This document shows, one piece after another, positions 49,658 through 64,000 of a DNA stretch of 64,000 bases (position 1 is its first letter; every line of letters starts with the position of its first letter). Below the pieces are notes generated by a model. It worked only from the letters and a program-made list of their open reading frames with translations, was not told the DNA's origin and did not search any database. Source of the stretch: Mucilaginibacter cryoferens (GTDB taxonomy: Bacteria; Bacteroidota; Bacteroidia; Sphingobacteriales; Sphingobacteriaceae); assembly GCF_014205845.1 (NCBI RefSeq), contig NZ_JACHCR010000005.1, forward strand, positions 62,001 through 126,000, given 5' to 3'. The position numbers and the translations under genes are program-made.

Positions 49658-51073
49658 ATGGGACAAACATTATTTGATAAGATATGGGATGCGCACGTCG
49701 TCAGTAGCAACGAGGGTTTTCCTGATATCTTATACATCGACACACACTTCATACACGAGGTAACCAGTCCGCAGGCATTTGATGGTCTGCGCACCAGGGG
49801 ATTACCGGTTTTCAGGCCAAAACAAACAGTGGCCACGGCAGATCATAACGTTCCTACAATTGATCAGCACCTCCCAATAAAAGAAGAACTTTCCCGCTAC
49901 CAGGTTGATATGCTCACCAAAAACTGTAAGGAGTTTGGTATCGAGCTTTACGGTTTAGGTCACCCTTTCCAGGGCATCGTACACGTAATAGGCCCCGAGC
50001 TGGGCATAACCCGACCGGGTGGCACTTATGTTTGTGGCGATAGTCATACTTCAACACATGGTGCCTTTGGTGCTATAGCGTTTGGCATAGGTACATCACA
50101 GGTTGAACAGGTAATGGCAACCCAGTGTTTACTGCAATCGCGCCCCAAAAGGATGAAGATTGAAGTGAATGGCAAATTGCAAAAAGGTGTTGGCGCCAAG
50201 GATATCATCCTGTATATCATCTCCAAAACCTCGGCCGCTGGCGGTACAGGTTATGCTGTAGAATATGCCGGCGATACTATCCGCTCGTTGAGCATGGAAG
50301 GCCGCATGACTATCTGTAACATGAGCATCGAAATGGGTGCCCGTTGCGGACTGATAGCGCCTGATGATACCACTATTGAATATGTAAAAGGTCGCGAATT
50401 TGCCCCTAAAGGCGAAGAGTGGGACAAAGCAGTAGCTTACTGGAAAACTTTATACTCAGATGCTGATGCAGCCTTTGATGAAGTATTATCCTTTAAAGCC
50501 GAAGATATTGAGCCAATGATAACCTACGGAACAAACCCCGGTATGGGCATTGGCGTTACACAACACGTTCCCGAAACTGCTTCGTTTGAAGCCAAAGAAC
50601 AGGGATCATACAAAAAAGCCCTTGATTATATGGGCCTGCACGATGATGAGCAGTTATTAGGTAAACCTATTGATTATGTATTCATCGGCAGCTGTACCAA
50701 CTCGCGCATTGAAGACCTACGCCAGGTAGCCGAATTTGTAAAAGGCAAACACAAGGCAGATAGCGTTACCGTATGGGTAGTTCCCGGCTCCAAACAAGTA
50801 CAGGAACAAGCCATCCGCGAAGGTCTCGACAAAATATTTGATGCCGCCGGCTTCCCTTTAAGAGAACCAGGCTGCAGCGCATGTTTAGGTATGAACGAAG
50901 ACAAGATCCCGGCAGGTAAATACTGTGTATCTACCTCCAACCGTAACTTCGAAGGCAGGCAAGGACCAAACTCCCGCACCTTCTTGGCAAGCCCGCTAAC
51001 GGCGGCCGCGAGTGCAATTACGGGGGTGGTTACGGATATACGGTCGTTTTTGTCGGAATCAGAATTAGTGTAA
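49658..51073 (+). CDS. leuC: 3-isopropylmalate dehydratase large subunit
   Basis: A 471-aa aconitase-family subunit that interconverts 2- and 3-isopropylmalate with Leu[15 protein letters not shown] is the family N-terminus, [13 protein letters not shown] binds substrate, and the [4Fe-4S] ligands are in IGSCTNSR and PGCSACLGM. The frame is open from an ATG at 49595, but those 21 extra codons are the third hairpin of the intergenic repeat, so I start at the ATG at 49658. The 3' end runs into a GAGAT-family repeat. Confidence 0.96.
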
Positions 51074-51074
51074 A

Positions 51075-51145
51075 CAGATATGAGAGGTGAGATTTGAGAC
51101 AGCTTCAAAAATCTCATATCTAAAATCTGGTATCTCAAATCTAAA
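51075..51145. repeat. GAGAT-family inverted repeat pair after leuC
   Basis: The left arm CAGATATGAGAGGTGAGA with TTTGAGAC (51075-51100) is answered by AATCTCATATCT and TATCTCAAATCTAAAT (51109-51145). It is the same family as at 42768-42900 and 55011-55140. Confidence 0.9.
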
Positions 51146-51148
51146 TAA

Positions 51149-51430
51149 ATGATACTCGAAGTTGCCATACTCCATGTGATACCCGGCCAGGAAGATGACT
51201 TTTTAAAAGCGTTTTCACAAGCACAGGGCATTATATCAAAAATGGCCGGTTATTATTCCCATCAATTAAAAAGATGCATTGAGCACACAAACCAATTCAT
51301 TTTACTGGTAGAATGGGAAAAACTTACCGACCATACAGTAGGCTTCAGAGCATCAAAAGAATACCAGGAATGGAAAGGTTTATTACATCATTTTTATAGC
51401 CCTTTTCCTACTGTAGAACATTACGAATAA
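51149..51430 (+). CDS. Antibiotic biosynthesis monooxygenase (ABM) domain protein
   Basis: A 93-aa single-domain protein with the ferredoxin-like ABM fold: LEVAILHVIPGQEDDFLKAF, a central helix with SHQLKRCIEHTNQFILLVEW, and FRASKEYQEW. Members are small cofactor-free oxygenases or haem/quinone-binding proteins that act as dimers; many have no known substrate. The gene is inserted between leuC and leuD with a different repeat pair on each side, so it is not an expected part of leucine synthesis. It may be a cargo gene co-transcribed with the operon. Confidence 0.85.
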   Translation: MILEVAILHVIPGQEDDFLKAFSQAQGIISKMAGYYSHQLKRCIEHTNQFILLVEWEKLTDHTVGFRASKEYQEWKGLLHHFYSPFPTVEHYE

Positions 51431-51446
51431 AGAAAAATAATAACGC

Positions 51447-51526
51447 GTCATTGCGAGGTACGAAGCAATCCCCAACTATACAGGGAGGATTTGCATATCG
51501 GAGATTGCGCCGTACCCCCCAATGAC
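51447..51526. repeat. GTCATTGCGAGG-type inverted repeat pair before leuD
   Basis: GTCATTGCGAGGTACGAAGC and AATC (51447-51470) are matched in opposite orientation at 51503-51526 (GATTGCGCCGTACCCC with CCAATGAC). The spacer begins CAATCCCCAACTATACAG, which recurs exactly at 57631-57648. This sequence type is widely dispersed in bacterial genomes. Confidence 0.9.
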
Positions 51527-51540
51527 GAAAACGCAATATT

Positions 51541-52131
51541 ATGAGTACCAAAATATTCAAACATATACAAACCAGCGTGGTGCCTTTGCCTATCGAGAAT
51601 ATCGATACGGATCAAATTATCCCCGCCCGGTTTTTGAAGGCCACTACCCGCGAGGGCTTTGGCAATAATTTATTTCGCGATTGGCGTTTTGATGGCGACG
51701 ATAACCCTAAACAGGAGTTCGTGCTCAACAACCCTAACTATGGCGGCAAAATCCTGGTTGCAGGTAAAAACTTTGGTTGCGGCAGTAGCCGCGAGCATGC
51801 TGCCTGGGCCATTGCCGATTATGGTTTTGATGCCGTGGTAAGCAGCTTTTTTGCCGATATTTTTAAAGGCAACGCGCTGAACAACGGCTTACTACCGGTA
51901 CAGGTAAGCGAAGACTTTTTAAAGAAGATCTTCGATGCTGTTTATGCCGATGAACATGCCGTTGTAGAGATTGACCTGGTTGATCAATTCATTAAAATTG
52001 TAGCCACCGGCGAACAGGAAACTTTTGAGGTTAACCCCTACAAAAAAGCGTGCATGACCAATGGCTACGACGATATCGACTACATCCTGAGCAAAAAGGA
52101 ATTGGTAGAAGAATTTGAAGAGAAGAGGTAA
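51541..52131 (+). CDS. leuD: 3-isopropylmalate dehydratase small subunit
   Basis: A 196-aa subunit with the swivel domain of aconitases. [20 protein letters not shown] is the family N-terminus, and [16 protein letters not shown] contains the substrate-binding serine and arginine. It completes the LeuCD enzyme encoded by leuC 467 bp upstream. The separation by an ABM gene and two repeat pairs is unusual, since leuC and leuD are normally adjacent. Confidence 0.96.
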
Positions 52132-52237
52132 AAGCTGAAAGGTAAAAGGGGAAAGGTCGGGAAATAAAAGGCAAAAACTGAAAGGTAAAAGGTTTGGCCA
52201 GCCGCAAAGACCAATGAACCAGTGAACTAATGAACCA
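52132..52237. repeat. Simple direct repeats between leuD and the methyltransferase gene
   Basis: Copies of CTGAAAGGTAAAAGG (52136-52150 and 52179-52193) are followed by AATGAACCAGTGAACTAATG and AATGAACAA units (52212-52240). The last unit contains the ATG of the following gene. Confidence 0.85.
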
Positions 52238-53029
52238 ATGAACAAAACAATCCAAAGAGAAGGCAAAGGCACAGCGAAGCTGTTCGACGAACGTAGTTTG
52301 GCGAATGATTATGCTACGCTTACGTCTGCGCTTAAACCCGGTCTGCGGGTTTTGGATGTGGGTTGTGGTACTGGTGCTATCAGTAAAGACATAGCGGCCA
52401 AAGTTGGTGATACCGGTCATGTTACGGGTATTGATAATACGGAGTATTTTATACAAAGCGGGAAGGAAACTTATGCTGATGTTAAAAACCTCAGTTTGAT
52501 ATATACCGACCTGTTTGCTTACGAACCGGAAGAACAATTTGACCTGATTGTAGCAGCCCGGGTTTTGCAATGGCTAAACAACCCGGTGGAGGCTTTAAAG
52601 AAAATGTATTCGCTATTAAAACCAGGCGGTGTAGTATCTATATTAGATTATAACCACGAGGCACTGGAATGGCAGCCGCAACCGCCGCCAAGCATGCTTA
52701 GGTTTTACGCCACCTTTTTAAGATGGCGCGGCGATGCCGGCATGAACAACCACATAGCCGAAGACCTGCCCGGATACTTTGAAGAAGCAGGTTTTACAGC
52801 TATCGTGGGGTTTAATGCCGATGAAGTTTATAAAAAAGGCGAACTCAACTTTATCAACAAAGCAGGCATCTGGGCCAAAGTGGCCCAATCGACGCAAATG
52901 GTAGAAGAATGCTATATCGACGATGAACTCCGCCTGCTGGCTATCGATGAATATACCCAATGGGTAGCAACCGATGCTGAGTGCATGACAATGAAACTAA
53001 AAGAAATACGCGGTATAAAACCCGCATAA
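52238..53029 (+). CDS. Class I SAM-dependent methyltransferase
   Basis: A 263-aa methyltransferase. LDVGCGTG (residues 39-46) is the SAM-binding motif I, VTGIDNTEYF motif II and FDLIVAARVLQWL motif IV, with LLKPGGVVSILDYN after it. The remaining ~100 residues form a family-specific C-terminal part. The substrate is unknown; small molecules or quinone precursors are possible. It is inserted between leuD and leuB, with simple repeats before it and a CCCCC/GGGGG hairpin after it. Confidence 0.87.
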   Translation: MNKTIQREGKGTAKLFDERSLANDYATLTSALKPGLRVLDVGCGTGAISKDIAAKVGDTGHVTGIDNTEYFIQSGKETYADVKNLSLIYTDLFAYEPEEQFDLIVAARVLQWLNNPVEALKKMYSLLKPGGVVSILDYNHEALEWQPQPPPSMLRFYATFLRWRGDAGMNNHIAEDLPGYFEEAGFTAIVGFNADEVYKKGELNFINKAGIWAKVAQSTQMVEECYIDDELRLLAIDEYTQWVATDAECMTMKLKEIRGIKPA

Positions 53030-53050
53030 CAATATCTAACTATAAAAACA

Positions 53051-53075
53051 TTCCCCCTTTAGGGGGTTAGGGGGC
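53051..53075 (+). repeat. Single CCCCCT-type hairpin before leuB
   Basis: TTCCCCCTTTAGGGGGTTAG with GGGGC matches the right arm of the repeat before ilvB. The left-type arm that would pair with it is 4.7 kb upstream, after ilvN. Confidence 0.85.
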
Positions 53076-53083
53076 TCGGCTTA

Positions 53084-54175
53084 ATGAAAAAACACATTTT
53101 AGTAATACCCGGCGACGGGATAGGCCCCGAGGTTACTACCTGGGGTAAAGCGGTTTTAGAAAAAATTGGTCAAGATTTCGGCCACGAGTTTACTTTTGAC
53201 GAGGCCCTGATGGGTCACGCCGGTATCGAGGCTACGGGTAACCCGCTGCCCGATGAAACTTTGGCAAAAGCAAAGGCCAGTGATGCCATTTTATTCGGCG
53301 CTATCGGTCACATCAAATACGATAATGATCCGTCGGCAAAGGTTAGACCCGAGCAGGGATTATTAAAAATCCGTAAGGAACTGGGATTGTATGCCAACCT
53401 GCGCCCTATCATGTTATTTGATGAGCTGCTGGATGCATCGAGCCTAAAACCGGAAATTTTGAAAGGAACCGACATTCTTTTCTTCCGGGAACTCACCGGC
53501 GATGTTTACTTTGGCGAGAAAAAACGCAGCGAAGACCGCAATACCGCATCAGATCTGATGATCTATTCCCGTTACGAGGTAGAGCGCATCGCCACTAAAG
53601 CATACGAAGCCGCTATGGTTCGAGGCAAAAGATTATGCTCTGTTGATAAAGCCAATGTACTGGAGACATCACGCCTGTGGCGCGAAGTAGTACAGGAGAT
53701 AGCTAAAAACTATCCCGAGGTAGAAACCGAACACATGTTTATCGATAACGCAGCTATGCAGCTGGTTAAAAACCCTAAAAAGTTTGACGTGGTATTAACC
53801 GCCAACCTTTTTGGCGATATTTTAACCGACGAAGCATCGCAGATTGCAGGGTCAATGGGTATGCTGGCATCGGCATCAATTGGCGATGGCACAGGCTTTT
53901 TTGAGCCTATCCACGGTTCGGCGCATGATATTGCCGGCATGGATAAAGCCAATCCGCTGGCGTCTATCCTATCGGTTGCGTTGATGTTGGAGATCAGCTT
54001 CGGCCTTAAAGACGAAGCCAAGCTCATCACATCAGCCATAGATAAAACGCTTAAAGAAGGTTACCGCACCGGCGATATTGCCGACGCCAATACCGACAAA
54101 GCCAAAATTTTAGGCACAAAGGCAATGGGCCAAAAAGTGTTGGAATATTTAGCCCCACCCAACCCTCCCCGGTAG
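53084..54175 (+). CDS. leuB: 3-isopropylmalate dehydrogenase
   Basis: A 363-aa NAD-dependent dehydrogenase that oxidises and decarboxylates 3-isopropylmalate to 2-ketoisocaproate. HILVIPGDGIGPEV starts the fold, GDVYFGEKKR and DKANVLETSRLW line the active site, NLFGDILTDEAS binds the metal and EPIHGSAHDIAG the NAD. The last residues, APPNPPR, are encoded by the left arm of an intergenic repeat (54151-54182), which also supplies the TAG stop, so the natural C-terminus has been replaced or extended by repeat DNA. Confidence 0.96.
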   Translation: MKKHILVIPGDGIGPEVTTWGKAVLEKIGQDFGHEFTFDEALMGHAGIEATGNPLPDETLAKAKASDAILFGAIGHIKYDNDPSAKVRPEQGLLKIRKELGLYANLRPIMLFDELLDASSLKPEILKGTDILFFRELTGDVYFGEKKRSEDRNTASDLMIYSRYEVERIATKAYEAAMVRGKRLCSVDKANVLETSRLWREVVQEIAKNYPEVETEHMFIDNAAMQLVKNPKKFDVVLTANLFGDILTDEASQIAGSMGMLASASIGDGTGFFEPIHGSAHDIAGMDKANPLASILSVALMLEISFGLKDEAKLITSAIDKTLKEGYRTGDIADANTDKAKILGTKAMGQKVLEYLAPPNPPR

Positions 54176-54254
54176 GGAGGGCTTTAAAAGTCTATTTTAA
54201 TAACAATTAAATAAAAAAAGTCTCCCCTACCGGGAGAGATTTAGAGGGGGCTAC
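54151..54254. repeat. CCCTCCC/GGGAGGG inverted pair overlapping the leuB 3' end
   Basis: The left arm (54151-54182) includes the CCCTCCC-CGGTA-GGGAGGG hairpin and the last codons of leuB. The right arm (54221-54254), CTCCCCTACCGGGAGAGA followed by AGAGGGGGCT, is an inverted relative and ends at the start of the next gene. Confidence 0.9.
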
Positions 54255-54255
54255 A

Positions 54256-55011
54256 ATGAAATGGAACGCTGATTTATACGACCAAAAGCACGCCTTTGTA
54301 TTCAAATTTGGCGAAGATGTTTTGGCTTTGCTGGATGTTAAGGCCGGCGAGCGCATTTTGGATATTGGCTGCGGTACAGGCCATTTAACCAAGCAGATAC
54401 AGGATAAAGGCGCCATTGTAAAAGGCACCGATTATTCGCCGGATATGATAGCACAGGCCCAAACATTATTCCCTGATGTTGATTTCGCGGTAGAGAATGC
54501 GGCCGATTTTTATACCGAGCAAAAGTACGATGCCGTTTTCAGCAACGCTGCCCTGCACTGGGTGCTTGATGCCAACGGCGCTATAAAAAGCATTTATGAT
54601 GCATTGAAACCCGGCGGCCGCTTTGTGGCCGAAATGGGTGGCAAAGGCAACGTAACCAGGTTATTAGAAGCTATCCGCCTGGTATTACAAAACCACGGTT
54701 ACCATGAACAGGCCGATACCAAAGTATGGTTTTTCCCGTCCACAGCCGAATATGCCAAACTATTGGAAGACCACGGCTTCAGGGTAACCTTTACGGCGCA
54801 CTACGACCGTAAAACACCACTACTGGATGGCGACCAGGGCGTAGCCAAATGGGTAACCATGTTTGGTGCCCAGTTTTTAGAAGGCATTGCCGACGACGAA
54901 AAAGAACAAATACTAAAAGAAATAACCCAAAAGCTGGAACCCTACTATAACGAAAGCGGCCAATGGTACGCCGATTATAAAAGACTAAGGTTTATAGCAG
55001 TGAAGGAATAG
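54256..55011 (+). CDS. Class I SAM-dependent methyltransferase (trans-aconitate methyltransferase-like)
   Basis: A 251-aa methyltransferase. LDIGCGTG (residues 35-42) is motif I, KGTDYSPDMIAQAQ motif II, and YDAVFSNAALHWVLD, with ALKPGGRFVAEMGGKGNV after it, matches trans-aconitate methyltransferase (Tam)-like enzymes. Tam esterifies trans-aconitate and related acids, including isopropylmalate in some yeast enzymes; its place between leuB and leuA makes a substrate from this pathway possible, though unproven. A different repeat pair lies on each side, and its stop lies in the downstream GAGAT repeat. Confidence 0.87.
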   Translation: MKWNADLYDQKHAFVFKFGEDVLALLDVKAGERILDIGCGTGHLTKQIQDKGAIVKGTDYSPDMIAQAQTLFPDVDFAVENAADFYTEQKYDAVFSNAALHWVLDANGAIKSIYDALKPGGRFVAEMGGKGNVTRLLEAIRLVLQNHGYHEQADTKVWFFPSTAEYAKLLEDHGFRVTFTAHYDRKTPLLDGDQGVAKWVTMFGAQFLEGIADDEKEQILKEITQKLEPYYNESGQWYADYKRLRFIAVKE

Positions 55012-55140
55012 ATATGAGACGTGAGATTTGAGATATGAGACTTTTTCTTTATCTTAAATCTTGCTTTCAAAAAATAAAGTAAAAAATAAAAACTGATGAC
55101 AGGTGCGAGTCTCAAATCTCATATCTAACATCTCAAATCT
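55011..55140. repeat. GAGAT-family inverted repeat pair before leuA
   Basis: GATATGAGACGTGAGATTTG and AGATATGAGACT (55011-55041) pair with GTCTCAAATCTCATATCT and AACATCTCAAATCT (55109-55140) across ~67 AT-rich bases. It is the longest of the three copies in this window. Confidence 0.9.
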
Positions 55141-55148
55141 AAAATAAT

Positions 55149-56315
55149 ATGTTACACGATCCCAACCGCGTTTATGTTTTTGATACCACGCTTCGCGATG
55201 GCGAGCAGGTACCAGGGTGCCAGTTAACCACCCCCGAAAAGATTGAGATAGCAAAAGAACTGGAACTACTGGGCGTGGATATTATTGAGGCCGGTTTTCC
55301 GGTTTCAAGTCCGGGAGATTTTCAGAGTGTTGTCGAGATATCGAAGGCAGTAACCAACCCTGTTGTTTGCGCGCTAACCCGTGCCAACAAAGGCGATATT
55401 GATGCCGCTATCGAATCATTAAAATATGCCAAACGTCCGCGTATCCATACCGGCATTGGTTCATCAGATATGCACATCAAGCATAAATTTAACAGCACCC
55501 GTGAAGAGATATTGGAGCGCGCTGTTGAAGCTGTAAAGTATGCCAAACGTGCTGTTGAAGATATTGAGTTTTATGCCGAAGATGCCGGCCGTGCCGATGT
55601 GGTTTACCTGGCGCAAATGGTTGAGGCCGTTATTGCTGCCGGTGCTACCGTGGTAAACATCCCAGATACCAACGGCTATTGTCTGCCCGATCAGTACGGT
55701 GCCAAGATCAAATTTTTGAAAGAAAACGTTAAAAATATCGATAAGGCCATCATCTCGGTACATTGCCACAACGATTTAGGCCTGGCAACCGCCAACTCTA
55801 TAGCCGGTTTACAAAACGGTGCCCGCCAGATTGAAGGTACCATCAACGGCATTGGCGAACGCGCCGGTAATACTTCTGTTGAAGAAGTAGTGATGATATT
55901 GAAAGTACACCAGGTGCTGGGCCTGCATACACAAATCGATTCTAAAAGGTTTTATGAATTGAGCCAGATGATTCGTACCCAAATGCGCATGCCGGTACAG
56001 CCTAATAAGGCTATTGTAGGTAGCAACGCTTTCGCGCACAGCTCGGGCATTCACCAGGATGGTTTCCTCAAAATGCGCGAGAATTACGAGATCATTCGCC
56101 CTGAAGATGTAGGCTTTCCGAGCGCCACAATAGTGCTAACCGCGCGCAGCGGCAGGCATGCTCTGAAGTTCCATCTGGAACGCCTTGGCTTTACATTGGA
56201 TAAAGATGAATTAGCCGCTGTTTACAATAAATTTTTAACGCTTGCCGATGTCAAGCTTGATATAAACGATATAGACCTGCACGGCTTAATGGCCCACAGG
56301 CTGGTAAAAAATTAA
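55149..56315 (+). CDS. leuA: 2-isopropylmalate synthase, short form
   Basis: A 388-aa enzyme that condenses 2-ketoisovalerate with acetyl-CoA, the first leucine-specific step. [16 protein letters not shown] is the metal-binding N-terminal motif, [13 protein letters not shown] and [13 protein letters not shown] complete the DRE-TIM barrel, and [10 protein letters not shown] is in the subdomain. The C-terminal leucine-binding regulatory domain of the ~520-aa enzymes is missing, so feedback by leucine is either absent or uses another route. The next gene starts 2 bp after its stop. Confidence 0.95.
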
Positions 56316-56317
56316 TA

Positions 56318-57568
56318 ATGGAAACCGAAACAAAAAACCTGCTCGATTTCGATTCGGCTTACGAACGGATAAAAGGGGTTGTAAAACGCACTCCGCTGGA
56401 GTATAATGCCGGCCTATCGGCAAAGTACGAGTGCGAACTATATTTAAAACGTGAGGACCTGCAAATAGTACGCTCGTACAAACTGCGTGGCGCTTACAAC
56501 ATGATCAGTCAGCTAAACCAGGACGAGCTTGACCGCGGCGTAGTTTGCGCCAGCGCGGGCAACCACGCCCAGGGCGTTGCCTTTAGCTGTAGCCGCTTAG
56601 GTACCAAAGGCGTAATTTTTATGCCCGAAATTACCCCCAAGCAAAAAGTTACCCAAACCGAAATGCACGGGAAGGGCAATATCGAGATCATTTTAACCGG
56701 TGATACTTTCGACGATTGCCTGCGCGAGGCTTTGATATATACCGAAGCCCACCAGATGACTTTTATCCCCCCTTTTGATAATTACCGTATTATAGAAGGC
56801 CAGGGAACCGTAGGTGTAGAGATATTGCAGGATCTGCCCGATATAGAAGCTATCATTATGCCTATAGGCGGTGGCGGCCTGGCGGCCGGTACAGGCAGCT
56901 ACCTCAAGCAACACGTACCAAACATTTACCTGGCCGGTGTTGAACCCGAAGGAGCCCCATCTATGCTGGAAGCCTTTGAACACGGCGGACCGGTTACCCT
57001 AAAAGAGATCAACCGTTTTGTAGATGGCGCCGCCGTAAAATGCGTTGGCAAGCTTACCTACAACCTGTGCCACGAAGTACTGGACGAAATGCTGCTGGTA
57101 CCCGAAGGTAAAGTGTGCACCACCATACTAAAACTATACAATGAAGATGCCATTGTAGTTGAACCTGCCGGCGCCCTATCCGTAGCGGTACTGGATGCCT
57201 GCAAAGATAAAATTAAAGGCAAAAAAGTAGTTTGCGTTATCAGCGGTGGTAACAATGATATTGCCCGTATGCAGGAGATCAAAGAGAAATCGCTGCTGTA
57301 CGAAGGCCTGAAACATTACTTCATCGTTCGCTTTCCGCAACGCCCGGGTGCTTTGAAACTGTTTGTGAACAACGTACTAGGTCCGCATGATGATATTACC
57401 CGTTTCGAGTTCATCAAAAAAACCGAAAAAGAAAACGGCCCCGCCCTGGTAGGCATCGAACTACGCAACGCCAACGACTACCCCGCCCTGCTCAACCGTA
57501 TGGCAGCCCACCGCTTCGAAGTAATTGAGTTGAATAAGGATCAAACGCTGTTTGAGTATTTGGTTTAG
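56318..57568 (+). CDS. ilvA: Threonine ammonia-lyase (threonine deaminase)
   Basis: A 416-aa PLP enzyme that converts threonine to 2-oxobutyrate for isoleucine synthesis. KREDLQIVRSYKLRGAYN contains the Schiff-base lysine, CASAGNHAQGVA binds the phosphate, and PIGGGGLAAGTGSYLK is the glycine loop. Residues after ~330 form one ACT-like domain (YFIVRFPQRPGALKLFV), the short regulatory arrangement found in Bacillus-type enzymes. It is the last gene of the operon, 2 bp after leuA. Confidence 0.96.
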   Translation: METETKNLLDFDSAYERIKGVVKRTPLEYNAGLSAKYECELYLKREDLQIVRSYKLRGAYNMISQLNQDELDRGVVCASAGNHAQGVAFSCSRLGTKGVIFMPEITPKQKVTQTEMHGKGNIEIILTGDTFDDCLREALIYTEAHQMTFIPPFDNYRIIEGQGTVGVEILQDLPDIEAIIMPIGGGGLAAGTGSYLKQHVPNIYLAGVEPEGAPSMLEAFEHGGPVTLKEINRFVDGAAVKCVGKLTYNLCHEVLDEMLLVPEGKVCTTILKLYNEDAIVVEPAGALSVAVLDACKDKIKGKKVVCVISGGNNDIARMQEIKEKSLLYEGLKHYFIVRFPQRPGALKLFVNNVLGPHDDITRFEFIKKTEKENGPALVGIELRNANDYPALLNRMAAHRFEVIELNKDQTLFEYLV

Positions 57569-57877
57569 GGCGGGTTCGGGTTGTGAGGATCGTGATCAGA
57601 TCTCCCGCCACATTATTGCGAGGAACAAATCAATCCCCAACTATACAGAGCACCTCTTCAAATAAGGATCACCAACAACGCTAAAAACATAAAAAGCCTC
57701 CCGAAGCTAAAAACTCCGGGAGGCTTTTGTTTTACTGGTCCGACGCGTGGCCCGTATCCATTTCCATCCTAACCCAGAGAGTTTAGAGTAAGTAGAGTTT
57801 ACTCTAAAATTGCGTAAAAACATAGAAATCAGCGTCAGAAAAAGGGTTACTATACTAGAAATCGCAGCTGTAGAAAA
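57569..57877. other. Intergenic region with repeat half, terminator and small inverted repeat
   Basis: No gene is seen. It holds one arm of the GTCATTGCGAGG family (57610-57648), the terminator listed next, and a TTTAGAGTA/TACTCTAAA inverted repeat (57782-57808) about 70 bases beyond the 3' end of the accessory gene on the - strand. Confidence 0.8.
57692..57728 (+). terminator. Rho-independent terminator of the ilv-leu operon
   Basis: AAAAGCCTCCCG (57692-57703) pairs perfectly with CGGGAGGCTTTT (57717-57728) across a 13-base loop. The A tract before and the T tract after allow termination from both directions, that is for ilvA (+) and for the accessory gene (-). Confidence 0.9.
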
Positions 57878-60800
57878 TCAGTAGCTATCGACATTTCGAT
57901 CGGGAAACACATCATCCGATATTTTTTTGATTAAATCAATTCCAGGCTTTATACCGCCTAATTCATGTTTAGCCAAGCACATTTTTATTAAATATCTTAT
58001 TTCATGAATTGCCTTTGGCGCGACGAAGCTATAACGATATTGCACCATCAAAGCGCTATACACATCAAATAAGTAAAATGAATTTTTTGAAATGGACGCT
58101 ATATAATTCTGTAGCTGTATATTCCAATCACGAGGACGCTCATAAATCGTCAATAGATAAAGCTCATGTCTTTTTAGATCATTCGTTTCAAGCGCAATCG
58201 TTTGATAAATTAAAGGCCCCATTTTACGCGAAAAGAGGTCATTTTTAAACCAATACATAATATTAAAGGGGATATTTTGCAGTATACTGTTGATTTTATC
58301 TTCAACAGTTTCACCAAAATTACCAATTAAAGAAAACGCGGCCCCATCAAAATCTGCATTTCCCTTCAATGCAAGCATTGGTGTTAATGCCATTAATACC
58401 TTAGACATCTGTTCCCATGAACGCATTATCTCAATCATCAGCTCTCTTTTTATTGATGGGTCTACATAATCACTATTTCTTAATGCTCTAGATGAGGTTT
58501 TGATGCTCTGCATTAATATTACAACGGAATAATCATTTAAGATGGTGTGGATACTTTGGTCGTAAGGCCTTTTGTTATCATAATCTCTATCGGCATATTT
58601 ATCCTTTACAGTATCAGGCAAATTAGAGTTCTGAACACCTTCCCCTATCTCATTTCTCATCTTTTCTATCCCATCGGAAGTTGGACGCCAAGTTATTAAG
58701 CGATATGGGTTCATTCCCTCAGGAAGGCCAACTTTTTTGTCCACTATATCACAAGTTATTTTTAAATCTGTTGTTAAAATCTTTAAAGCATCCTCCCTAC
58801 TTCTATCTATTCCGGTATAAAACTCTACCATTTCCGGAAAATTAATATACCGTTTATTTTCAAATATATAATTTGAAAAGTTGGGGCTATGCTGCATTCT
58901 TTGTGCACCAAAATAATATATCCAATAAGAAAATTTAAATTGATAAAAGCTGTTACGTTTAACTATAATGTTATTTGAATGTAAAACATCAAATACTACC
59001 TCTGCATCTAAATCTATAACTCGTTCACTACAAAAATTCTTGACGTCATTTAAAAATTGCTCTCTCAAAAATAAAAAGTTCATTGACTTAATCATTTTCT
59101 CGCAAAAATAACCAAGCACGTATTCACAATCTTTCAAATCTGGCCTTGATTTATAGGTGGGGATTTCTTCCATATCAAACAATAAAAAAAGAATCATTTT
59201 TATCATTTCCGTTCTATTAACGGGGCTATCATCAAAAGATTTTTCAGAAACTTTTAACAGAGTGAGGCAGTTCAAGGGCGTGCGGTGAATGTTTAAAACT
59301 TCTAAATCTGACGTAACCTTCGCGATAATAGCGTCTTCCTCTCCGATATGCTTTTGATCGTTATAAGCTGATACTACTTTTCTAATATTACTTCTACTTA
59401 AAGCTAATAAATGTAAAACATTAAACTTTCTATCGACTGCTCGTTCATTTGAATCATCTCTGAACTTAGAACCATCGACCGTGTGCATAATAATTAGTGG
59501 AAGGTCGCCGTACAAAGCAATTATTTTATTGATGATCTTTGTCGAATCTTTTTCTGTTTCTACCCAAGAGTCAATTATTATACAATTAACATTTTCAATT
59601 TCAATTGATAAACTTTCTGCTTCTTGAGTTATAACCTTTTGTATATTATGAAGTTTAAGATCTCGAAAGTCTATTCGAAGCCATATCGATTTCGAAATTG
59701 TCCATGCTTCTTTAGTCAAATAAAATGATAAGCAAGATAAGCCAAATTGTGGCGGGGCTTTTATTATAGTTGATTGAATATTTTCAATAAAAGAAGAAAT
59801 ATTAACCCTATCCTCTTCGCTTTCTACCGATTCTAATGAAAACTCATCACTTGCACTTAAAAATGGTTCAACCCAAATGATCGGTTGGGATGAAAATGAT
59901 TTTAGAGAATCGTTAAAACGCTTGACTAGTAATCTGGGATAAAAGTCGTCTTCCAATTTAAATTCTTTTTTTTCAAATTTTGAGATCTTTTTTTCTTGAA
60001 TTATTACTTTTCCGTCATCGGTATTTGAAAAATTAACACCAGTCACGAATGAATAATTTTTGGTCCATTGCCTATAGTTAATTTCAAGTATACCACTTTG
60101 ATCAACATTAATAATAGAATATCCTAAATGGTCTTTCTTGTTAGTTAGCAATGGAGGGGCAGAACACATGGTTAATCGGTGGTCATTACTTAAAAGATGA
60201 AAGTGGGATTGATCATGCACATGTCCTGACAAACACAGAGAAAAGCTGTTTTTCAATATCTTTTCCAACTCAATTTGAGACCAATTTGCTAACCAATCGA
60301 GAGGATGGTGCATCATTAATATTTTCGTACTGGAGCTGTCTTTTTGCAACCACTTTTGAAGGCTTCTCGTATCAATCAAAAGTCTACCCCTATCGTTAAT
60401 ATTATTAAAGCCTCCACTTGATAACAATGCAGTATTCAAACAATATATACTAACACCATTTCCTAAATCCCATCCTCTACCTGTAATATTTTGCGCGATA
60501 CCATATTGGGAAAATAATTGTTCGAACAGTTCGTAATTTTCAAATTTTTTTAAAATGATTTCTGGCTGACTAAACATATAGTCATTGAATTTCTTTTCTG
60601 TTAAATTTTGCGAAATAATTCCTTCGTGTTCAATTTCCTTTTCACTTACGTAATTCCTAGAAACATCATGGTTTCCTGGTATACATATCCTTTGAGATAT
60701 GGGAATATTTAAGTTATTTAAGTCCGCGTCAAATCTTTCTAAAAATTTCGTATACAATTCGCTATCTCCACCTGCCAGTACAACATCTCCGCTAAAAGCA

Positions 60801-60934
60801 ATAAAAACATTTTGAGGGTTTAAATATTTTAGTTGTTTTTCTAAATCTTTGAAAAAAGATGACAACAGTACCTCTTGGTCTTCTTCCCAATTGTTGCGAA
60901 AATGCAAATCGGATAAATGAATAATACTTTTCAT
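57878..60934 (-). CDS. Metallophosphoesterase fused to a STAND-like NTPase with degenerate P-loop; candidate defence protein
   Basis: A 1018-aa protein. Residues 1-290 are a calcineurin-like metallophosphoesterase with all metal ligands visible: D9 and H11 (HLSDLHF), D50 (SGD), GNHD (87-90), H209/H210 (MMHHP) and GHVH (237-240). After a linker, residues ~345-590 look like a STAND/AAA-type NTPase. IIKAPPQFGLS (390-400) is at the Walker A place but lacks the lysine, CIIID (451-455) is Walker B-like, and RTPLNCLTLL resembles the post-core proline motif. Residues ~600-1018 are helical with no motif I know. The effector-NTPase-sensor order is typical of Avs-like antiphage proteins. The gene is visibly AT-rich, stands alone and lies between repeats. 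This role is inferred; a housekeeping hydrolase is less likely. Confidence 0.75.
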   Translation of the reverse strand: MKSIIHLSDLHFRNNWEEDQEVLLSSFFKDLEKQLKYLNPQNVFIAFSGDVVLAGGDSELYTKFLERFDADLNNLNIPISQRICIPGNHDVSRNYVSEKEIEHEGIISQNLTEKKFNDYMFSQPEIILKKFENYELFEQLFSQYGIAQNITGRGWDLGNGVSIYCLNTALLSSGGFNNINDRGRLLIDTRSLQKWLQKDSSSTKILMMHHPLDWLANWSQIELEKILKNSFSLCLSGHVHDQSHFHLLSNDHRLTMCSAPPLLTNKKDHLGYSIINVDQSGILEINYRQWTKNYSFVTGVNFSNTDDGKVIIQEKKISKFEKKEFKLEDDFYPRLLVKRFNDSLKSFSSQPIIWVEPFLSASDEFSLESVESEEDRVNISSFIENIQSTIIKAPPQFGLSCLSFYLTKEAWTISKSIWLRIDFRDLKLHNIQKVITQEAESLSIEIENVNCIIIDSWVETEKDSTKIINKIIALYGDLPLIIMHTVDGSKFRDDSNERAVDRKFNVLHLLALSRSNIRKVVSAYNDQKHIGEEDAIIAKVTSDLEVLNIHRTPLNCLTLLKVSEKSFDDSPVNRTEMIKMILFLLFDMEEIPTYKSRPDLKDCEYVLGYFCEKMIKSMNFLFLREQFLNDVKNFCSERVIDLDAEVVFDVLHSNNIIVKRNSFYQFKFSYWIYYFGAQRMQHSPNFSNYIFENKRYINFPEMVEFYTGIDRSREDALKILTTDLKITCDIVDKKVGLPEGMNPYRLITWRPTSDGIEKMRNEIGEGVQNSNLPDTVKDKYADRDYDNKRPYDQSIHTILNDYSVVILMQSIKTSSRALRNSDYVDPSIKRELMIEIMRSWEQMSKVLMALTPMLALKGNADFDGAAFSLIGNFGETVEDKINSILQNIPFNIMYWFKNDLFSRKMGPLIYQTIALETNDLKRHELYLLTIYERPRDWNIQLQNYIASISKNSFYLFDVYSALMVQYRYSFVAPKAIHEIRYLIKMCLAKHELGGIKPGIDLIKKISDDVFPDRNVDSY

Positions 60935-61224
60935 GTAATAAGTTTAGATTTATTTTTTGTTAAAGTAATAAAAAATAAACCATTCCCTCTATCCGAAGTC
61001 TTCTCCCCCTGTTCGAATGTCTCCGACTTCAAACAACTATGCATATATTTAAAAACTACGGTGTATATAGTAAAAGAAAAAGTAGTTGGAAGAAACCTAA
61101 CATATTGGTTCGAAATTAAAAACATTCGAACAGCGTTCTTATCATTAAAAATCAACGAATCTGATAGCATAGTTATTCGGTTTACCGTCCCCAATATCCC
61201 TATCTTCGCCCATACCCCATTAAC

Positions 61225-61461
61225 ATGCCCCTACGCCAAACCATTTCCTTTTTCGATAAGCTCAGTAAACAGGTGATTAGCATACAGGTTGCCGAGTCGG
61301 CGCAGTTGCCGCAAAGCGCAGGGTACTGGAATACCGATACCAACCAGGTATTATTGGGTAGCGACCGGTTTAGCGAATGGGAAACATTAACCGGCCACCT
61401 GGAAAAGCAAATTGAATTTATTTTTGGCTTGCAAAAAGTAACAAGGCCGTTGATAGATTGA
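61225..61461 (+). CDS. Small hypothetical protein
   Basis: A 78-aa frame starting at ATG 61225 (LRQTISFFDKLSKQVISIQV, then YWNTDTNQVLLGSDRFSEWE). I do not recognise a family. The composition is that of an ordinary soluble protein, with GC content like the core genes and unlike the AT-rich gene to its left, and it has no transmembrane or signal segment. It lies divergently from the accessory gene and before the REP cluster. It could be a real small gene; no motif proves it. Confidence 0.5.
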   Translation: MPLRQTISFFDKLSKQVISIQVAESAQLPQSAGYWNTDTNQVLLGSDRFSEWETLTGHLEKQIEFIFGLQKVTRPLID

Positions 61462-61555
61462 ATTGGGAGACGAAAGGGCAGCCATACAGATCATATAACC
61501 AGGCGCAGATTATATTGGCCGAACCTACAGTTCTCTTTTACCTGCATTGATATTA

Positions 61556-61721
61556 CCACGGGTTAAAACCCGTGGCTACAATATTGGTCGGGGCGATGCC
61601 CCTTTGCCTATTGTAATAAATTTATAATTGCAGTTCAAGAGCCATAGGCTCGATGCATACTGTAGCCACGGGTTTCAACCCGTGGAATGCGCAAAAACGT
61701 ATTATGGAGTGCCATCGGCAC
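61556..61721. repeat. Cluster of five REP-like hairpins, two next to GTAG
   Basis: Perfect small stems: CCACGGGTT/AACCCGTGG (61556-61575), GGGGC-GAT-GCCCC (61580-61592), GAGCC-ATA-GGCTC (61639-61651), CCACGGGTT/AACCCGTGG again in the opposite orientation (61666-61685), and GTGCC-ATC-GGCAC (61709-61721). The two CCACGGG hairpins each carry GTAG on their 5' side (on opposite strands), the arrangement of REP elements mobilised by Y1 RAYT transposases. No transposase gene is in the window. Confidence 0.85.
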
Positions 61722-61750
61722 GGCCCATTTTTTCAAATAACGTTTTGCGA

Positions 61751-62200
61751 AGTTAGAACCTATACGGCCGCTCTGTATCGCTACGAGATTGCCACGCTAT
61801 CGCTCGCAACGACAATTTTTTAATATTTTTTAGATATCACCAATCTTCTCGCTTCCCCAATGTGTCGGCAGAGGAGCTTCGGGCGAAAGCGGGCAGAACG
61901 ATGGTGGGCGGTGCGGCTGCAGGGCATAGGAAGTTTTTGCATGCCTAAGGCAATGCGGGTGAGGGCAAAATAATTCCAGCCCAGGTTCTGCCAGCTTTGC
62001 AGGGCAAAGGCCTGTGCGGCAAAGAAGCCTTTCTGCCGACTTGATTTTTGGTTACTTTTCATCAAGGAAAAGTAACTAGGCCCTCCCGCGGCCAAGAGCG
62101 GGTCGATGTTATCGATTACAACGAAATAATGTAGTTAGAACCTATACGGCCACTCTGCATCGCCACGAAATAGCCACGCTATCACTCAACGACAATTTTT
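61751..62200. mobile_element. Segment bounded by ~70-bp direct repeats, possible non-autonomous element
   Basis: The sequence at 61751-61820 recurs at 62133-62200 in the same orientation with about eight substitutions and a 2-base gap; both copies begin AGTTAGAACCTATACGGCC and end AACGACAATTTTT. Between them lie 312 bp containing a GTTACTTTTC-ATCAAG-GAAAAGTAAC hairpin (62051-62076) and a frame of 91 codons (-). The layout could be a non-autonomous element or two repeats that recombined. Confidence 0.55.
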
Positions 62201-62261
62201 ATATCACGTTCGTCAATCATACCCTCTACACAAGGCGCTAAATATAAACATTCGAACAACC

Positions 62262-64000
62262 CTACCTCGCCACACTAAACACATAACTCCCCGATGCCAG
62301 TTCATAAATAGCTTTCCCATCAGCATACTTCAAAAACTTAATACCTTTTGCTTTATCCACCGGTTTGCCACTTTCGGTAACCAACGACGCTGCTTTGGCA
62401 GGCAGGTATAGGGTTGCTTTGGTATTGGCAGGCACGGTGGCGTTGTAGCTTAGCGTGTTGCCAGTAACTTTCCAGCTGCTGTTTATCCTTCCATAGGGCG
62501 AATCATAATAGCCCTTGGCGTAGGTCATCTGCCCGGTAGGATCTGGCTCGGGTTGTAGGATGATTTTTTTGAAGGCGGCCCCATCGCGTTGAATGCCTAA
62601 GGAGTAAGCCATCATCCACTGGCCCACAGCGCCAAAAGAATAATGGTTAAACGAGTTCATACTGTTATTGCCGCCAAAACCATTTTCCACGGTGTAACCA
62701 TTCAGGCGTTCCCAAATGGTGGTAGCTCCCTGGTCAACAGCGTACAGCCATGATGGATAATGTTCATTTTGCAGTACCTTGTATGCCAGGTCGCTGTGAC
62801 CATAATCTGATAACGATTTGCTGATCCAGGCGGTGCCGATGAAGCCCGTCATTAATGAATATTTGGGGCGGGTAACACCGCCGTCGTCCTTATTTTCGCG
62901 TTCTACAGCGCCTTGCAGGTTTTTGGCCATGTAAGGGATGTTTTCGTCGTTAAAAACACCAAGAGACAAGCCTACGGCGTAAGGTGTTTCAATATCGGCA
63001 ACCTTAAATTCAACCTTCGCGTCGCGTGGGGCAAATATGCCGCCGCCAATGAGGCCCAAAGCTTTTTTATCGGCACTTACAAAGGTTTTGTTAAAAAATG
63101 CCTTACGCTCGTTATAGCGTTCCTGGTATCTGGCGGCATCCCCGGGTTTGTTTAAAGCGGTGGCTACCTTAACCATAATCCCGAGGTCGAAAATGTGGTA
63201 GGCGGTTACCAGGTAATCGGTACCCAGCTGGTTATTTTGCGGGCCAAGCCAGTCGCCAAGCTGCCCGTCGCTGCTAAGTCCGGTAGTTTTGTTAATGGTG
63301 GAGTCAACGTAGCTCATATACCTTGCCATGGCATCGTAATGTTCCTTTAGCAAGGCAACATCATCATATTGCTGGTAAGCCTCCCAGGGTATGGTAATAC
63401 CAGCGCTACCCCAAAGCACGCCGCCAAAGCCGCCGCCAACAGGTGCTATATCGGTAAACTTACCGTTGGCCATTTGCAGATCGCGCAGGGCAAAAAGGTG
63501 GCGGCGCAAAAACTGGTCGGTATTGGAAAGATAAGTAGCCGTACGCGAAAAAATACTAATATCGCCCGACCAACCCATGCGCTCGTTACGCTGCGGGCAA
63601 TCTGTAGGGATAGTTAAAAAGTTATCGATGTTTGACCACGTAAGATTTGACCAAAGCTTGTTTACTTTGGCATTTGATGTGTTATAATCGGCCGTAAGCT
63701 TACTTATCGAACTCATGGCCAGGCCCTGTACTGCCGTTAAGCGCAGCGGTTCGTCTATCCCGGTGATCTCTATATACTGGTATCCGTGCGATGTAAAATG
63801 CGGCTGAAATACCTGTGGGCCATCCTTCATGGTATAAATATCCTGGCTTAGGGCTGCCCGGTAGTTTTCGGTCATAATCATGCCCACATTTTTACCAGAT
63901 TCCTTCAGGTTAGGGTACAATACCTCGGCATAGCGGAAGGTGATTTTTTTACCGGCCTCGCCATCTTTAAACGTTATACGCGGTACGCCCACTATGTTTT
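62262..64000 (-). CDS. Alpha-L-rhamnosidase (GH78), C-terminal part; 5' end outside window
   Basis: At least 579 codons are visible on the - strand, open to the window edge; GTG at 63990-63992 is internal (the frame reads NIVGVPRITF across it). DCPQRNERMGWSGD is the hallmark of the GH78 catalytic (alpha/alpha)6 barrel and contains the proposed general acid; TTIWERLNGY holds the second catalytic glutamate. NSFNHYSFGAVGQWM and the beta-rich C-terminal domain complete the family. The enzyme removes terminal L-rhamnose from plant glycosides or pectin. The signal peptide and N-terminal domains are outside the window. Confidence 0.93.
   Translation of the reverse strand, partial: NIVGVPRITFKDGEAGKKITFRYAEVLYPNLKESGKNVGMIMTENYRAALSQDIYTMKDGPQVFQPHFTSHGYQYIEITGIDEPLRLTAVQGLAMSSISKLTADYNTSNAKVNKLWSNLTWSNIDNFLTIPTDCPQRNERMGWSGDISIFSRTATYLSNTDQFLRRHLFALRDLQMANGKFTDIAPVGGGFGGVLWGSAGITIPWEAYQQYDDVALLKEHYDAMARYMSYVDSTINKTTGLSSDGQLGDWLGPQNNQLGTDYLVTAYHIFDLGIMVKVATALNKPGDAARYQERYNERKAFFNKTFVSADKKALGLIGGGIFAPRDAKVEFKVADIETPYAVGLSLGVFNDENIPYMAKNLQGAVERENKDDGGVTRPKYSLMTGFIGTAWISKSLSDYGHSDLAYKVLQNEHYPSWLYAVDQGATTIWERLNGYTVENGFGGNNSMNSFNHYSFGAVGQWMMAYSLGIQRDGAAFKKIILQPEPDPTGQMTYAKGYYDSPYGRINSSWKVTGNTLSYNATVPANTKATLYLPAKAASLVTESGKPVDKAKGIKFLKYADGKAIYELASGSYVFSVAR

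Follow-up and report, generated by a model that had tools for sequence, protein, structure and literature searches.

DS-8 is a single antiphage protein that joins an SMPDL3A-like metallophosphatase to a NACHT domain, and mutating either domain is reported to abolish defence (PMC13092281). The PADLOC library holds a candidate system, PDC-S60 (PDLC05051, PDLC05050), in which a metallophosphoesterase (MPE) model is pooled with a DUF4062 model; a preprint reports DUF4062 to be a TIR-like NADase family (PMC13174449). Inactive STAND modules occur in published multi-gene conflict systems, where a nucleic-acid-binding role has been proposed for them (PMC8195603, PMC7159879 and PMC12839542). Here we describe a gene of Mucilaginibacter cryoferens carried by a 64,000-nucleotide stretch of contig NZ_JACHCR010000005.1 (positions 62,001 to 126,000, hereafter the window). 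Its product, P0001, is probably a bacterial antiphage sensor that combines an intact-looking enzyme end with a conserved loss of the ATP-binding signature. The open reading frame (ORF) starts with ATG, contains no internal stops and is organized as follows.

57878..60934, minus strand: whole P0001 gene (MPE, pseudo-NACHT core, helical C-terminus), 1018 residues
60035..60934, minus strand: N-terminal MPE domain, residues 1-300
58730..59902, minus strand: NACHT/AAA+-fold core with helical and winged-helix parts, residues 345-735 (predicted model)
59735..59758, minus strand: pseudo-Walker A APPQFGLS, residues 393-400, in which Leu399 replaces the P-loop Lys (alignment)
59570..59584, minus strand: Walker B strand, residues 451-455, Asp455 retained and followed by Ser (alignment)
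59276..59296, minus strand: GxP-like segment LNIHRTP, residues 547-553; His550 is Pro in 13/14 other relatives
58910..59065, minus strand: nSTAND_NTPase4 Pfam segment, residues 624-675, winged-helix region (PF24406, E=5.7e-12)
57881..58864, minus strand: helical C-terminal domain, residues 691-1018, putative sensor (alignment, low-confidence model)

The modelled core and its replaced P-loop

P0001 belongs to a group of five full-length proteins, hereafter the pseudo-core proteins. The others are L083 and L084, both encoded by genome G683, L069 of genome G307, and L063, from the Chryseobacterium sp. plasmid NZ_CP041688.1. A further relative, L064, from a Pseudomonas mandelii plasmid, retains the C-terminal half only. 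The P-loop was compared in a 19-protein alignment of these five with 14 other MPE-NACHT relatives; the latter amount to about 13 independent proteins, L065 (plasmid) and L145 (viral contig) being near-identical. Eight proteins with a long PDC-S60 match, among the matches listed, were taken for the relative set. L064, which has no P-loop region, the fragment L085, a 66-position match in genome G091 and a short MPE match in genome G060 were dropped before counting.

P0001 lacks the Walker A motif GxxxxGK[ST], a hallmark of STAND NTPases. Instead, APPQFGLS occupies the Walker A column of its aligned relatives without gaps, with Leu399 in the Lys column. The five pseudo-core proteins read APPQFGLS, APSEFGLT, APPQFGLT, APPQFGLS and AAPHFGLT, that is A-x-x-x-F-G-L-[S/T] in 5/5, whereas 13/14 of the other relatives keep GxxxxGK[ST]. 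Hence, the first P-loop Gly has become Ala, while none of the five has lost the second Gly (G398) or the Ser/Thr. A second change accompanies the first: the Pro position of the GxP-like motif, found as Pro in 13/14 of the others, is His (LNIHRT) in 5/5 pseudo-core proteins. In STAND proteins this Pro packs on the adenine. The Walker B Asp is retained in 19/19. Together, these replacements suggest that the core of P0001 has lost ATP binding.

Within the five proteins, the core is least conserved at residues 345-540, where 15 of 196 columns are invariant. Four of the eight motif columns are nevertheless invariant, which suggests selection on the replacement motif. The single exception among the 14 relatives, a more distant MPE-NACHT protein encoded by the Sinorhizobium meliloti plasmid CP050513.1 (L066:5929-9153), reads SPQEYGRT, with Lys changed to Arg, and is possibly an independent degeneration. 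Elsewhere in the phylum, DUF4062-STAND proteins keep GDPG[AS]GKT: it was seen as a P-loop in the longest ORF at 10 of the 18 loci examined, out of 23. Compensation by a Lys shifted to position 392, just before the motif, was rejected, as Lys392 is present in only 3/5 rows. A pseudogene or a sequencing error was rejected as well, the same odd motif being found in four other proteins. Hence, the degenerate P-loop is conserved across a group and not decayed; this, together with the presence of a different N-terminal enzyme on the same core in the nearest relative, is what the present comparison adds.

The core is modelled as a NACHT/STAND fold, like that of human inflammasome proteins. The model of residues 345-735 is of medium confidence (pLDDT 68.1, pTM 0.70), and NACHT domains of NLR proteins rank first in both fold comparisons, Foldseek included. 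Asp455, the winged-helix segment detected by nSTAND_NTPase4 (PF24406, residues 624-675, E=5.7e-12, above the Pfam cut-off) and a predicted P-loop fold are the STAND features present. An earlier note, made from the DNA letters alone, had described a STAND-like core with a replaced Walker A Lys and had proposed a structure prediction of the middle region; the Lys column and the NACHT-type NTPase model both bear it out. By sequence, a search of the PDB with P0001 gave no match at E≤0.01, and the core profile matched clamp loaders alone, weakly (E 0.035).

The enzyme end looks intact. Pfam PF00149 (calcineurin-like phosphoesterase) matches residues 3-241 (E=1.8e-17, above the Pfam cut-off), and D9, H11, D50, N88, H89, H209, H238 and H240 are invariant in alignments of 8 and 5 rows of relatives. 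Going by the roles of these positions in the MPE family, we take H89 to be catalytic and the other seven to be ligands. On the other side of the core, the helical C-terminus contains 63 invariant columns out of 323 (residues 691-1013) across the five proteins. The full ligand set and the long helical C-terminus had both been anticipated in the earlier note.

Effector exchange on a rare core

Unlike the shared core, the N-terminal enzyme varies: it is an MPE in P0001 and L084, and DUF4062 in L063, L069 and L083. PF13271 is above cut-off for L069 and below it for L083, whose residues 1-199 match the DUF4062-type PDC-S60 model (E=1e-61 for L083); for L063, the domain is named in the sequence record. 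All three DUF4062 domains contain an SGTE motif. Core identity to P0001 is 55.8% for L083, 44.1% for L069, 39.9% for L063 and 33.6% for L084, and the MPE domains of P0001 and L084 are 37.4% identical. The closest core, that of L083, thus bears the other enzyme, and therefore effectors have been exchanged on an apparently nucleotide-blind core.

In 17-row core trees, from which L145 and L146 were left out, the five proteins lie on one side of a branch supported 100/100, or 100/99 once the motif columns are removed, and P0001 pairs with L083 (94/93). By approximately unbiased tests, monophyly of the MPE rows within the five was not rejected (p=0.11) and that of the DUF4062 rows was weakly rejected (p=0.038). 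At least one exchange within the group is firm; its number and direction are not. Since PDC-S60 pools both effector types, and since the core of L024, an MPE protein with an intact P-loop, matches the DUF4062-type model with 236 bits, MPE and DUF4062 may also have been exchanged in the Lys-bearing group.

Pseudo-core proteins are rare. In partly overlapping genome draws, the core profile found one genome (G307) out of 394 in the phylum, beside that of P0001, and two out of 394 in the class (G683 and the dropped match of G091). Among 46 genomes of the family of G683, a pseudo-core was present in G683, with a fragment in G891; among 255 genomes of the class of G307, G307 alone had one. P0001 was not found in 99 other genomes, save for the short MPE match of G060 (residues 4-97). 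On the other hand, matches to PDC-S60 occurred in 140/395 and 70/149 genomes, most of them to the MPE alone among the matches listed. Many large ORFs of one Bacteroidota family (L007-L030; family f52), spanning at least about 590-1590 residues, likewise share only the MPE with PDC-S60, and their remaining parts may be further MPE effector fusions.

Related defence systems and rival explanations

By sequence, P0001 is a distant relative of DS-8 and PDC-S60, with DS-8-like proteins nearest. The NCBIfam model DS8_antiphage (NF053861) matches residues 6-682 (E=1.6e-43), and the MPE-type model of PDC-S60, for which PADLOC displays no cut-off, matches residues 4-931 (E=1e-58, profile positions 3-938 of 1027). 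The sole further PADLOC match is PDC-S10 (E=0.0011, residues 48-93). Like DS-8, a DefensePredictor system, P0001 is a single protein with an N-terminal MPE, here with its full catalytic set, and a NACHT core; measured against DS-8's profile and published description, it differs in belonging to a group with neither the Walker A Lys nor the GxP-like Pro. The MPE and DUF4062 models of PDC-S60 fit the effector exchange of the pseudo-core group, whereas the other full-length MPE-NACHT proteins collected keep a canonical P-loop (13/14).

The earlier note had likened P0001 to Avs sensors; its interpretation is partly supported, right in direction and wrong as to the nearest family. P0001 and Avs share the order effector, STAND, sensor. 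However, no Avs (AVAST) family was matched at E≤1 in PADLOC, so that membership was rejected by sequence, and comparison of the core fold puts NLR NACHT domains first. In the Foldseek list of full-length P0001, Avs4 (8dgf_A) comes 34th (E=1.2e-4, TMq 0.14). Swarozyc and other DUF4062 NADases (PMC13174449) resemble the group through the DUF4062 with SGTE of three of its five proteins. P0001 itself has an MPE, and its membership was rejected, as its N-terminus matches PF00149 and not DUF4062.

iSTAND, iSTAND2, inactive nSTAND2 and BrxB also have a STAND module with eroded NTP-binding motifs, some with N-terminal effectors (PMC7159879, PMC8195603, PMC12839542). According to these sources, they belong to multi-gene systems (MoxR-vWA ternary systems, paired STANDs, BREX). 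In contrast, P0001 is apparently a lone protein of the nSTAND4/DS-8 lineage that keeps the Walker B Asp and has a specific replacement motif. No MoxR or vWA partner gene was found among the ORFs of positions 50000-64000 or by Pfam scans of the nearest neighbours. In the open-access PMC full text searched, we found no description of the pseudo-P-loop group, nor of a solitary DS-8-lineage protein that joins effector, iSTAND and sensor.

The explanation that we favour, and consider rather probable, is a horizontally acquired, single-protein antiphage sensor of the DS-8/PDC-S60 type, in which a NACHT relay frees the N-terminal MPE independently of ATP. By analogy with DS-8 and NLRs, the C-terminus would sense, the core transmit and the N-terminus act. 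The helical C-terminus would recognize a phage-made trigger, and the NACHT-fold core would pass on the signal without the usual ATP-binding P-loop. It might do so as a fixed scaffold, or by oligomerizing or binding nucleic acid independently of ATP. Relief of autoinhibition would then free the MPE, which would hydrolyse a phosphodiester (a nucleotide, a cyclic nucleotide or a nucleic acid) and stop the infection. Transmission without a normal nucleotide cycle is the most likely behaviour of the pseudo-core; we infer the defence role from relatives, and ATP independence, C-terminal trigger sensing and the nature of the MPE substrate are likewise proposals. A bolder one, which we put forward as tentative, is that an NLR-like lineage has permanently dispensed with the nucleotide switch, its A-x-x-x-F-G-L-[S/T] pseudo-NACHT serving as a scaffold or receptor, perhaps for nucleic acid, on which killer enzymes are swapped.

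Several points weigh against the favoured explanation. P0001 scores 148.6 bits with the DS-8 model, against a curated cut-off of 790, and DS-8 itself cannot do without a NACHT residue (PMC13092281). The antiphage role of the group is put forward from its relatives, and only five full-length pseudo-core proteins were found. The best Foldseek match of the core is modest (TMq 0.37), and model confidence is low over the C-terminus. The AlphaFold2 models were built from five sequences only and may borrow the fold of intact P-loops, because four of the five carry one. Across the whole core, the motif does not stand out: its invariance is equalled or exceeded in 46 of 662 eight-column windows. The core trees were rooted at the midpoint and gave long-branch warnings, and support for the forks inside the five is weak. 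Finally, neither the P0001 gene nor L083 stands beside recognized defence genes.

A core that still binds a nucleotide without the Lys, such as tightly held ADP or ATP, or another ligand, with exchange and not hydrolysis as the switch, would also account for a defence protein. Asp455, G398 and the Ser/Thr are kept in 5/5 and the fold is NACHT-like; however, the Lys of Walker A and the Pro of the GxP-like motif, with the adenine-packing role given above, are changed together in 5/5, and the first Gly is Ala throughout, which makes such binding rather unlikely. The pseudo-NACHT could instead be one half of a hetero-oligomer and borrow the active site of another STAND, as has been proposed for paired nSTAND2 proteins, in which an active STAND is accompanied by an inactive one whose effectors vary (PMC8195603). 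No active STAND gene was recognized beside P0001, L083, L084 or L069, by ORF lists and Pfam scans of some neighbours, distant genome sites not being searched, and we regard this arrangement as improbable.

A host role, as a chromosomal regulator or a nucleotide phosphodiesterase, would suit a solitary gene behind the ilv-leu operon whose MPE domain also resembles housekeeping phosphodiesterases. Yet the gene has a low GC content and sits in a slot that holds other cargo elsewhere; not found within 1.5 kb of ilvA at 29/29 congener loci nor, but for one short MPE match, in 99 other genomes, it makes a very improbable host gene. Decay would explain the degenerate P-loop and little else: the ORF is full-length, all MPE ligands are kept and four other proteins have the same odd motif, so that a decayed gene is scarcely credible.

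Nucleotide exchange is generally regarded as a requirement for firing in NACHT and NB-ARC immune receptors. The pseudo-core group, keeping fold, sensor and apparently active effectors while its P-loop is conservedly replaced, offers a natural experiment in the role of the nucleotide. The pair of genome G683, one MPE form and one DUF4062 form, and the MPE-NACHT siblings with an intact P-loop make this question directly testable.

Genomic slot, neighbourhoods and phage-borne relatives

The P0001 gene is AT-rich and solitary, as the earlier note had observed: its third-position GC content (GC3) of 0.29 lies below the range of eight further genes in the window (0.34-0.54), and it is convergent with ilvA, the end of the ilv-leu operon, past a 17-pair stem-loop. 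An alpha-L-rhamnosidase gene (Pfam) lies on the other side. By Pfam, the nearest neighbours are a leuA-type enzyme, ilvA, a protein with no family and the rhamnosidase. Two features accompany the gene.

57692..57728, no strand: stem-loop terminator between ilvA and the P0001 gene
61556..61685, no strand: REP-like palindromic repeats (CCACGGGTTnnAACCCGTGG) upstream of the P0001 gene

In addition, a 55-nucleotide direct repeat (61751-61805 and 62133-62187, 89% identical) is found on the 5' side. Of the flanking repeats and terminators invoked in the earlier note, the stem-loop, the palindrome and the direct repeat are thus present; terminator-like sites are not in excess (2, against a shuffle mean of 3.2), and no repeats resembling element ends were seen around the gene. 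No Rfam element reached gathering scores at positions 54000-64000.

The stretch from ilvA to the rhamnosidase gene has the look of a hotspot for cargo genes, in agreement with the idea of a candidate defence gene in a variable slot. It measures 4.7 kb with the P0001 gene (57569-62261). The gene was not found within 1.5 kb of ilvA at 29/29 congener loci, nor in five longer congener stretches. In the congener G056, about 12.7 kb of other genes fill the same slot (L118:1362-14049), between an ilvA 84% identical over 56318-57736 and an 87% identical rhamnosidase stretch. They include genes for a tetratricopeptide-repeat NTPase (weak AAA_16/nSTAND5), for an ATPase and for an IS200-like transposase, as well as one whose product resembles an endonuclease effector at its N-terminus (PDC-M68A, E=2.5e-23). 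Past ilvA, G020 has a RelA/SpoT-like gene matching the candidate PDC-S33, with the rhamnosidase flank outside the 17.3 kb read. Both flanks were visible in one of the five congeners read at length.

The neighbourhoods of the homologues, which the earlier note expected in variable islands, are mostly variable or defence-like. L063 lies within a type I restriction-modification cluster that also encodes a pore-forming effector, CBASS genes are located about 4.5 kb from L064, and L069 is one gene away from the FRG gene of the candidate PDC-S15. L084 adjoins an AbiEi/AbiEii pair; its surroundings (L084:824-18947, G683 contig C10), with a Zot/terminase-like ATPase, a helicase, the AbiE pair and small proteins without family, look like a mobile element or a phage-like region. 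L083 departs from this pattern, standing amid ordinary genes, as judged from the ORFs and from Pfam scans covering three neighbours. Related MPE domains also occur on Klebsiella and Pantoea plasmids (L147:3995-8163 and L148:3995-8171), within GASH (GTPase-associated) gene clusters, which are likewise predicted to be a conflict system.

No phage-borne pseudo-core was found in the phage records or viral contigs searched, and a viral-contig scan with L035, an MPE-NACHT relative whose P-loop is intact, gave no match. In PHROGs, residues 445-736 of P0001, which belong to the core and not to the MPE, match phrog_100 (E=1.7e-11), a 989-position phage family named SbcD-like. Because of this match, relatives from the wider family appear to be carried by phages, and phrog_100 may hold MPE-NACHT proteins of phages or prophages. 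Two MPE-NACHT proteins with an intact P-loop, L145 and L146, were found in viral contigs; together with the phrog_100 match, they count against a purely cellular family. The genes around L146 (L146:3341-6490, IMG/VR IMGVR_UViG_2711768047_000009) were read by eye as a lambdoid prophage, with genes of lysis and antitermination type, and its position reads like a typical prophage cargo slot.

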